A stretch of DNA of 64,000 bases from Sphingobacterium thalpophilum (GTDB taxonomy: Bacteria > Bacteroidota > Bacteroidia > Sphingobacteriales > Sphingobacteriaceae): the NCBI GenBank assembly GCA_945868825.1, contig CAMBMM010000001.1:434001-498000 (forward strand), given 5' to 3'. Numbering within the stretch: position 1 is the stretch's first letter; every line of letters starts with the position of its first letter. Under the pieces are notes generated by a model. It was not told where the DNA came from, searched no databases, and saw nothing but the letters and a program-made list of their open reading frames with translations. Positions 35,747 to 39,732 of the stretch are shown here, piece after piece. The position numbers and the translations under genes are program-made.

Positions 35747-36934
35747 ATGTCTTCCACGCTTTCTTTTTTAGTATCCGATCCTTCTTTGCCTATAGAACTC
35801 AAAGCTATTGCGCAAAAAGTACAACAAGGTGAACGCATTAGCCCCGAGGAAGGGCTATTACTTTACGAAAAAGCTGATATTTCTTATTTGGGTGTTTTAG
35901 CCAATTTTATTAGAACGCAAAAACATGGTGACAAAACTTATTTCAATCGCAATTTTCATATAGAGCCCACTAATTTATGTGTGTACGATTGTAAATTTTG
36001 CTCTTATTCTCGTTTGTTGAAACAAAAAGACGAAGGGTGGCAGTTTACTAAAGAGGATATGATGAACATCGTAAAATCATACGATGGAATGTCTGTAACC
36101 GAAGTACACATTGTGGGTGGTGTTTTGCCTCAATACGATGTTGATTTTTATCTGGATTTATTTCAGTCTATTCGTGTGCACCGAGCAGATTTACACATTA
36201 AAGCGCTTACGCCGGTAGAGTTTCATTACATCTTTAAAAAAGCTAAAATTGATTATGCCACAGGCATGAAATTGATGAAAGAAGCAGGCTTGAACTCTAT
36301 TCCTGGTGGTGGTGCCGAAATATTTGCCCCCGAAATTAGAGAGCAAATAGCAAAAGATAAATGTACGGGCGCTCAATGGTTAGAAATTCATGAAATTTGG
36401 CATAATTTGGGCATGCGTTCCAATGCCACTATGCTATATGGCCATATAGAAAAGTACGAGCATCGTATTGATCATATGGAGCAATTACGCCAATTACAAG
36501 ATCGTACGGGTGGTTTTCAAACCTTTATTCCGTTGAAATTCAGAAATCAGGACAATCAATTATCGCACCTAAACGAGGTAAGTGTGCTCGAAGATTTGCG
36601 TAATTATGCCATTTCTAGAATTTATCTCGATAATTTCGATCATATTAAAGCGTATTGGGCCATGATAAGTCGGCAAACCGCACAACTTTCTTTGAGTTTT
36701 GGGGTAGATGATATTGATGGAACTTTGGACGATACCACCAAAATTTACACCATGGCTGGTGCCGAAGAACAAAATCCGGCCATGAGCACGCAAGAATTGG
36801 TGAATTTAATTAAACAAGTTGGCCGCCATCCTTTAGAACGTGATACTCATTATCACGTTATTCAAGATTTTAAGGATATAGTGTTTGACGATGAAGTAAA
36901 ACCCAACTATTACCCCTTACCGGTATTGAATTAA
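35747..36934 (+). CDS. mqnE: Aminofutalosine synthase (radical SAM)
   Basis: Radical SAM enzyme that joins 3-[(1-carboxyvinyl)oxy]benzoate to SAM-derived adenosine in the futalosine menaquinone pathway. The Fe-S cluster motif CX3CX2C is 'CVYDCKFC', at about residue 77. The flanking 'FHIEPTNLCVYDCKFC' and the 'GGGAEIFAPEIREQI' segment are typical of the MqnE/MqnC/CofH group. The 395-residue length and a linked mqnA favour MqnE over MqnC. The next gene starts on its stop codon. Confidence 0.9.
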   Translation: MSSTLSFLVSDPSLPIELKAIAQKVQQGERISPEEGLLLYEKADISYLGVLANFIRTQKHGDKTYFNRNFHIEPTNLCVYDCKFCSYSRLLKQKDEGWQFTKEDMMNIVKSYDGMSVTEVHIVGGVLPQYDVDFYLDLFQSIRVHRADLHIKALTPVEFHYIFKKAKIDYATGMKLMKEAGLNSIPGGGAEIFAPEIREQIAKDKCTGAQWLEIHEIWHNLGMRSNATMLYGHIEKYEHRIDHMEQLRQLQDRTGGFQTFIPLKFRNQDNQLSHLNEVSVLEDLRNYAISRIYLDNFDHIKAYWAMISRQTAQLSLSFGVDDIDGTLDDTTKIYTMAGAEEQNPAMSTQELVNLIKQVGRHPLERDTHYHVIQDFKDIVFDDEVKPNYYPLPVLN

Positions 36935-37551
36935 TGTATACAGCCAAAACATTTTACATTATTAGGCACGGCGAAACCGATTTAAACAGCCAAGGAATAA
37001 TTCAGGGCCGTGGAATGAATACCGATTTAAATGAAAAAGGTGCAGTACAAGCTGCAGCTTTCTTTAATGCATACCAACACATTCCATTCGATATAGTTTA
37101 TACTTCAACCTTAAAGCGCACCCACCAAACGGTTGCCAAATTTATTGAGAATGATGTTCCTTGGATACAACACGCTGGTTTAGATGAATTGGCTTGGGGA
37201 ATTTATGAAGGCAAACCATCAGAAATTACCAAACCGGCATTTTTAGCCTTAACAACAGCATGGTTAGCAGGTGCGGTACACGAAAAGTTTGAAGCTGGCG
37301 AAAGCCCTATGGAGGTTCAAAATAGACAATTAGAAGCTTTAGAAGAGTTAAAAAAACTACCAGAAGAAGTATCCAACGTGTTAATATGTATGCATGGTCG
37401 AGCATTACGCATATTCTTATGCGTGTTATCTGGTTTATCCTTATCGCAAATGGATACATTCCCGCACACTAACACCACTTTGTATAAAGTGTATTTTGAT
37501 GGTGAGAGCTTTGAAATTCAGGAATACAACAATACCCAGCATCTAGTCTAA
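36934..37551 (+). CDS. Histidine phosphatase family protein in the mqn operon
   Basis: A 205-residue phosphoglycerate-mutase-like phosphatase. The phosphohistidine motif is 'FYIIRHGETDLNSQGIIQGR', the second catalytic part has 'LDELAWGIYEGK', and the distal His lies in 'VLICMHGRALRIFLC'. It begins on the last base of mqnE and ends one base before mqnA, so it is co-transcribed with menaquinone genes. No phosphatase step is part of the standard futalosine pathway; its substrate is unknown. Confidence 0.9.
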   Translation: MYTAKTFYIIRHGETDLNSQGIIQGRGMNTDLNEKGAVQAAAFFNAYQHIPFDIVYTSTLKRTHQTVAKFIENDVPWIQHAGLDELAWGIYEGKPSEITKPAFLALTTAWLAGAVHEKFEAGESPMEVQNRQLEALEELKKLPEEVSNVLICMHGRALRIFLCVLSGLSLSQMDTFPHTNTTLYKVYFDGESFEIQEYNNTQHLV

Positions 37552-37552
37552 A

Positions 37553-38278
37553 ATGAGCGATAAAATTAACGTTTCTGCCGTTTCTTATACCAATACCAAA
37601 CCTTTTGTGTACGGGCTTACCCATTCGCCGGTAGCAGCGCACATTAACTTAAGTTTAGATATACCCGCTACTTGTGCCGATAAATTGTTGAATAATGAAG
37701 TAGATCTTGGCTTGGTTCCAGTAGCCACATTACTGCGTATGCCACATTATGAATTAGTTTCCGATTACTGCATTGGAGCGGTAGGGGCGGTCAATTCGGT
37801 ATTCATTTTTTCAACCAAACCAATTGAAGAAATTCAAAGTATTTGCTTTGATGCACAATCTAGAACCTCTAATTTATTAGCCCAAGTGCTTATGAAACAT
37901 TTGTGGAAAAAAGAAGTGCAATGGTTAAGTGAAGGACAGGCAGATGCATTTGTAGAGATTGGCGACCGCACCTTCGGAAAAAAAGCACACTATGTATATA
38001 GCTACGATTTATCGGAATGTTGGTTCAGTTTAACTCAACTTCCTTTTGTATTTGCAGTTTGGGCAAGTGTAGTAAAATTACCTCAACACTTTTTAAGCTT
38101 ATTTAATGACGCTTTGGATTTAGGTCTCAATAACCGCAATGCGTTAATAGAAAGTTTAGCAAAGGAAAACCTAGCTATTGATTTAAGGCACTATCTCACC
38201 CAATCTATAGATTACCAATTCGATTCCCAAAAACGTTTAGGACTTAGCACGTTTTTAGAGTTGGCAAGTGCGCTCTAA
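37553..38278 (+). CDS. mqnA: Chorismate dehydratase
   Basis: Converts chorismate to 3-[(1-carboxyvinyl)oxy]benzoate, the first step of the futalosine menaquinone route. A 241-residue periplasmic-binding-protein-like fold: 'KINVSAVSYTNTKPFVYGL' at the start, 'CADKLLNNEVDLGLVPVATL', and 'SRTSNLLAQVLM' in the substrate cleft. With mqnE it shows that the organism makes menaquinone through futalosine. The last 24 bases overlap the lost C-terminal frame of the opposite nucleoside phosphorylase. Confidence 0.92.
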   Translation: MSDKINVSAVSYTNTKPFVYGLTHSPVAAHINLSLDIPATCADKLLNNEVDLGLVPVATLLRMPHYELVSDYCIGAVGAVNSVFIFSTKPIEEIQSICFDAQSRTSNLLAQVLMKHLWKKEVQWLSEGQADAFVEIGDRTFGKKAHYVYSYDLSECWFSLTQLPFVFAVWASVVKLPQHFLSLFNDALDLGLNNRNALIESLAKENLAIDLRHYLTQSIDYQFDSQKRLGLSTFLELASAL

Positions 38279-39124
38279 TACCAACTTTATTGTTTTATCA
38301 ATCGTTTTACTCGGGTTTCTAGAGAACTCATATTTAACTCTGCTAGCTAAAATGGCATTAACCGATATGGCTTGGTGGCCTAAAATATTGGCTAAACCAT
38401 AAATTCCTTAGGTTTCCATTTCTAAATTAGTTAGTCGCCAATTATCTTTTTTAATGCCCGATAATTGCTTAATAAAATTTGGAATAGTTTTAGTAAAACG
38501 CAATTCGCGTCCTTGTGGTGCATAAAATCCTGGTGCTGTAACTGTAATTCCACGAGGTAAATCTTTACCAATTTTACGCAATAATAGTTTGCTTCCGGCA
38601 CATACATAAGGTTTAAAAGTTTTAAAAGCAGGGGCTTGGCTAACTATTGCTCTTAAAATAGCTTTTTCTTCTCGACTTGCTTCATAGGTGTAAAAGGCCA
38701 TCAAGGCATCAAGGCCAACAGCGTATTCAGATACCAAAATGCTATCAATAGGTATGTCTGTTTGAATGGTGCCGGAGGTGCCAATCCGAATAATATTCAG
38801 GCTTTTAAGTTTTTGTAAATACACCCTACGATCAAGATCTATATTCACTAATGCATCCAATTCATTAAGTACAATATCTATATTATCGGTTCCAATACCT
38901 GTAGATATTACACTAATTCGTTTCGAACCTATATAGCCGGTATGGGTAATAAATTCACGTTTTCCTTTGCGTAATTCTACTTTATCGAAGTGTTTGCTTA
39001 CTTCACCCACCCGATCCGGATCGCCCACGGTAATAATATCATCAGCTAAATCTTCGGGCAAAATGTTTAGATGATATACGCTACCATCTTTATTTAAAAT
39101 GAGGTCTGTTGTGGTAATTTTCAT
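38255..39124 (-). pseudogene. Nucleoside phosphorylase interrupted by an in-frame TAA
   Basis: A PNP/UDP-family nucleoside phosphorylase (uridine phosphorylase-like). Translation from 39124 stops at the TAA at 38408-38410 after 238 residues, directly behind 'NLEMET', the ribose-binding EME motif. The same frame then continues without damage for 50 codons ('GIYGLANILGHQ' onwards) to a TAA at 38255-38257. With the stop read through the product is 289 residues, the family's usual size. Conserved parts upstream include 'IITVGDPDRVGEV', 'STGIGTDNIDIVLNEL' and 'IRIGTSGTIQ'. It overlaps the YigZ gene by ATGA. It may be a recent pseudogene, a readthrough gene or a sequencing error. Confidence 0.85.
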
Positions 39125-39732
39125 AATGTTGATAGATAAATTAACCTCAAGTTATTGATATTTTCTAATAGTGTAATAATTTTTAATACAAATTGTTGTC
39201 TAACTTCAATTATCAAGGAGCATTCGGTATCTAATTCCTGAGCTATAATAGTGATGTTTTCATCTTTTAGTATTTTCATCACCGAATTAAGTTGGGTATA
39301 GGGTACGTATAATTGATAGCAATCTTTTATCGTTTTTTCTATTATTTCAGCTTCTTTAATAGCTGCTAACGACGCTTCTTTGTAAGCATGTATTAAGCCA
39401 GGAACACCCAATAAGGTACCGCCAAAATAACGTACAACGGTTACACAAACTTGGGTAAGATTGGCTGATAAAAGTGTATTCAATATTGGTTTTCCTGCCG
39501 TTCCAGAAGGTTCTCCGTCGTCATTTACCCTAAAAACCGACCGATCTGTACTTATTCGTAGCGCCCAGCATATATGTCTAGCCTTGGGGTGTTCGGCCTT
39601 TAATTGCGCCAGTATTCCTTTTACATCCTCTACCGATTGAATAGGGAATATGTAGCCAATAAACTTGCTTCCTTTATCTTTAAAGAGTCCTTGAGCGGGT
39701 TTTTTTACGGTTAAATACGAATCGCTAAACAC
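39121..39732 (-). CDS. YigZ/IMPACT family protein
   Basis: A 203-residue IMPACT-family protein: 'KDKGSKFIGYIFPIQSVED' at the start, 'HICWALRISTDRSVFRVNDDGEPSGTAG' in the centre (here the 'DDGEPSGTAGKP' core is the hallmark), and 'CVTVVRYFGGTLLGVPGLI'. A C-terminal ferredoxin-like domain (DUF1949) follows. The family is linked to translation control, but the bacterial role is unclear. It lies between a DMT transporter gene (two bases) and the nucleoside phosphorylase (ATGA overlap), on one transcript. Confidence 0.92.
   Translation of the reverse strand: MFSDSYLTVKKPAQGLFKDKGSKFIGYIFPIQSVEDVKGILAQLKAEHPKARHICWALRISTDRSVFRVNDDGEPSGTAGKPILNTLLSANLTQVCVTVVRYFGGTLLGVPGLIHAYKEASLAAIKEAEIIEKTIKDCYQLYVPYTQLNSVMKILKDENITIIAQELDTECSLIIEVRQQFVLKIITLLENINNLRLIYLSTL

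Follow-up and report, generated by a model that had tools for sequence, protein, structure and literature searches.

The gene described here is a uridine-phosphorylase-like member of the nucleoside phosphorylase-I superfamily. In a uridine phosphorylase studied earlier, Met236 and Glu237 of the EMET motif bind the ribose and Gln206 and Arg208 the uracil, while Glu235 and Thr238 support a phosphate-binding Arg (PMC7271239). The nearest solved structure to the protein described here is 3bje, the uridine phosphorylase of Trypanosoma brucei (Foldseek E 4.4e-29; TM 0.88 of the query), which it also resembles in sequence (phmmer E 1.8e-35), the FYxxQGR and NxEMET motifs being common to both. The copy under study differs from the uridine-phosphorylase-like members of this superfamily in that it stops directly after EMET. 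At the level of the gene, the closest parallel is the young bacterial pseudogene made by a single nonsense mutation, with which the locus shares one premature stop in an otherwise intact frame, an undecayed tail behind it, and intact orthologues in relatives; no difference from this class was noted. Translated pseudogenes, the 'pseudo-pseudogenes' of Feng et al. (2022, NAR), as that work is cited in PMC11078800, would be comparable if the present gene still yielded some full-length protein.

The Interrupted Frame

The window, that is, the whole stretch of 64,000 nucleotides analyzed here, comes from a genome of 1.66 Mb in 4 contigs with a completeness of 99.4%. The frame of the uridine-phosphorylase-like gene starts with ATG at 39124 on the minus strand, and 238 codons of it remain open (38408–39124; Pfam PNP_UDP_1, E 2.4e-19) up to a premature TAA at codon 239 (38408–38410), which directly follows NLEMET. 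Behind this stop the frame stays open for another 50 sense codons (38258–38407, minus strand) to a second TAA at 38255–38257, which is, by reading of the frame, the original terminator of a 289-residue protein. Both the premature and the natural end are as the initial annotation had placed them, and its residues and lengths were confirmed. An open run of 50 codons has a chance of about 0.03 at the local base composition, which is modest evidence alone; it is not the length of the run but its conservation, with the 289-residue protein 97% identical in amino acids to that of the nearest relative and the tail strongly conserved in 93 relatives, that marks the tail as genuine coding sequence.

Both ends of the frame meet a neighbor. 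Its last 24 bases (38255–38278) overlap convergently with the end of a plus-strand gene at 37553–38278, MqnA-like by context, and upstream a yigZ-like gene (39121–39732) overlaps the phosphorylase ATG. Futalosine-pathway genes occupy 35747–38278 and run convergently with the broken phosphorylase; within this region MqnE, which scores above its NCBIfam cut-off, and the MqnA-like gene, assigned from context only, flank a gene that reads as phosphoglycerate-mutase-like.

Codon 239 in Relatives

No second genome of the window species was found; its best match in the named collection is a sister species of the same genus, with about 90% DNA identity and one contig collinear with nearly the full 64 kb. 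The search of named relatives gave a Sphingobacteriales MAG (isolate name LacPavin) as closest, followed by Sphingobacteriaceae MAGs, Daejeonella and Pedobacter. Apart from the stop, the phosphorylases of the window and the sister species have the same length and share 97% amino-acid identity over residues 1–289. The sister species carries TCA (Ser) at codon 239 and differs from the window within this codon at 38409, so that a single substitution suffices to yield the TAA, in line with the one change that the initial annotation had counted from TCA to TAA.

For the wider comparison, 93 relatives with an intact frame were aligned, and 16 loci whose frame was missed by a simple motif filter were left out. 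All 93 have a sense codon at the position of the stop, encoding Ala in 89, Ser in three and Gly in one, in agreement with the earlier expectation of Ala and sometimes Ser; in each, the protein continues for 47–52 residues past this position. Relatives sharing the 238-residue C-terminus, named by the initial annotation as counter-evidence, were looked for among these 93 and not found. The premature stop, absent from the intact orthologues, is thus specific to the window genome among the genomes compared.

Two other loci were considered as second broken copies. An internal stop at L096 was rejected, being the natural end of that locus, and further 'stops inside' in the family survey were assumed to be natural ends, as their matches reach query residues 287–288. 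In a genome of the same genus (G002; L163 1500–1673, at the end of contig G002:C139), only phosphorylase codons 263–289 match, adjoined by about 95 unrelated bases up to the end of the 3.5 kb contig, and these bases gave no convincing match elsewhere in the genus. This case was set aside as evidence, since in a 60% complete assembly it may reflect a deletion or a faulty end of the contig.

Constraint on the Tail and Age of the Stop

Over the first 238 codons, the window and the sister species differ with a dS of 0.33 and a dN of 0.015 (dN/dS 0.044). The 50 tail codons show 14 synonymous changes and two replacement changes, the latter in 116.8 sites (dN/dS 0.028), so the downstream codons still bear the mark of selection that a recent nonsense pseudogene should show. 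The tail is as constrained as the body, indicating that it was translated until recently. Conservation imposed by the convergent plus-strand gene can be rejected as the cause, because the overlap covers only 24 bases and the 42 tail codons outside it (240–281) have a dN/dS of 0.036. Moreover, all replacements between the two genomes, in body and tail, fall at positions that are variable in other relatives, and the sister comparison bears out the earlier remark that the frame carries no damage besides the stop.

A simple Poisson model gives a chance of about 4e-8 for no more than two replacements in a tail that was free of constraint along the entire window branch. Under the same model, its constraint-free time amounts to at most about 20–35% of the branch since the split from the sister species (95% limit), the range reflecting different ways of dividing the divergence between the two branches. 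At the level of sequence comparison, the tail codons are shown to have been under purifying selection until late in the window lineage. Together with the placement of the replacements at variable sites, this constraint leaves three possibilities: the stop arose recently, translation still extends through the tail, or the base call is erroneous.

Origin of the Stop

The reading we prefer, at roughly two chances in three, is a recent nonsense mutation from TCA to TAA in an intact gene, giving a newborn pseudogene that is either fixed or still polymorphic. A single base change in the Ser codon TCA, the state seen in the sister species, would have created the TAA at codon 239; translation would end there, the product would be without the closing helix, strand and helix of the fold and presumably would not work, and the gene would have become a pseudogene very lately in the sampled population, in all or some of its members. 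Among the options of 'recent, recoded, or error' offered at first, the sister TCA and the unrelaxed tail favor the recent event.

An error in the sequencing or assembly consensus, or a minor variant taken into it, is the main rival, a possible but distinctly weaker explanation, according to which the population has a working gene. The lack of damage besides the stop, within a surrounding sequence that is intact and constrained throughout, fits an error just as well as a very young event. The change is a single C-to-A, or G-to-T on the other strand, which is a common type of artefact, and about 4.6% of random substitutions in the phosphorylase gene create a stop. However, in the comparison of 62 genes over 64 kb (20,303 residues) with the sister species, the phosphorylase stop is the only true internal stop and there is no frameshift, the other flagged stops, at residues 7–21, being taken as a matter of start-codon choice. 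One internal stop in 62 genes is about the usual frequency of bacterial pseudogenes. We estimate far below one false stop per window at plausible error rates. A recent gene-breaking mutation is most likely and a sequence error less likely.

That the TAA is read through by recoding, a suppressor tRNA or leaky termination, so that the full-length enzyme is still made, is highly improbable. It would likewise yield a conserved tail, and if true, a conserved gene would survive despite an in-frame TAA, but the recency of the stop alone accounts for this conservation. TAA is the terminator of 50 of the 63 window genes. The genome has 35 tRNA matches, 34 of which are given an ordinary sense anticodon by ARAGORN, the last being a weak match, located directly behind a tRNA-Ile/tRNA-Ala pair and not called by that program; the anticodon TTA is absent from the 34 that were read. 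The stop occurs in none of the relatives compared, so a conserved recoding site is lacking. Taken together, the use of TAA, the tRNA set and the solitary internal stop lend no support to a code change or a suppressor tRNA, and the recoded option among the three raised at first loses its ground accordingly. Restart of translation past the stop was also rejected: the tail contains no in-frame ATG or GTG, and its sole TTG is at codon 281.

Predicted Effect of the Truncation

The protein belongs to PNP_UDP_1 (PF01048) with or without its tail, scoring 80.9 bits when the stop is read as X and the tail included and 70.1 bits when it is omitted (cut-off 25.1), which indicates that the tail contributes to the family match. 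The intact homologue reaches 84.4 bits against TIGR01718 (uridine phosphorylase), whose equivalog cut-off is 280; with this bacterial group far under the NCBIfam uridine phosphorylase cut-offs, its substrate assignment is putative. The sister-species protein as modelled by AlphaFold2 (mean pLDDT 89.5, pTM 0.90) has, past the position of the stop, a helix (238–248), a strand (251–261) and a C-terminal helix (271–286), all with pLDDT above 90. In the window copy, the codons for the final strand and the C-terminal helix lie behind the stop; the intact homologue has both elements and with them a complete fold. Among relatives, several positions within the tail are invariant.

The counterparts of the named substrate-binding residues, the Gln and Arg of FYxPQGR and the Glu-Met-Glu-Thr, all precede the stop, and the loss is therefore structural. 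With its last helix, strand and C-terminal helix gone, the 238-residue form is probably inactive, as judged from the model. It is the least probable reading of all that this form is a functional shortened enzyme, even though it keeps every one of these residues, since three well-predicted terminal elements are missing, no aligned relative ends at codon 238, and the tail has invariant positions.

Dispensability of the Gene

The other PF01048 genes of the genome resemble a purine nucleoside phosphorylase, an AMP nucleosidase and a futalosine-hydrolase-like protein, as assigned from sequence appearance and context. As these differ in apparent type, there is no obvious duplicate to cover the function. 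No further copies came up in a scan of viral contigs. An orthologue is detectable in 169 of 251 family genomes; among the 236 near-complete ones, it was detected in 162 and not in 74. Loss thus seems to be tolerated, about one third of the near-complete genomes being without a detectable orthologue. Within the genus, the phosphorylase is intact in all other genomes that have a complete copy, indicating that the gene is normally under selection there.

The finding is of a routine kind, with nothing unusual in the genetic code and little significance beyond the window genome. Automatic annotation should mark the locus as a pseudogene, or as a possible error in the sequence, rather than report a 238-residue enzyme. 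If the stop is real, it would represent a dated loss of a gene for nucleoside salvage in a Sphingobacteriaceae lineage with a small genome.

The neighboring yigZ-like gene (IMPACT family) also differs between the two species: it is intact in the window, and the sister species is without about 377 bases of it (39237–39614 in the window; about 64026–64034 of contig G001:C10), so that the gene has apparently been largely deleted there.
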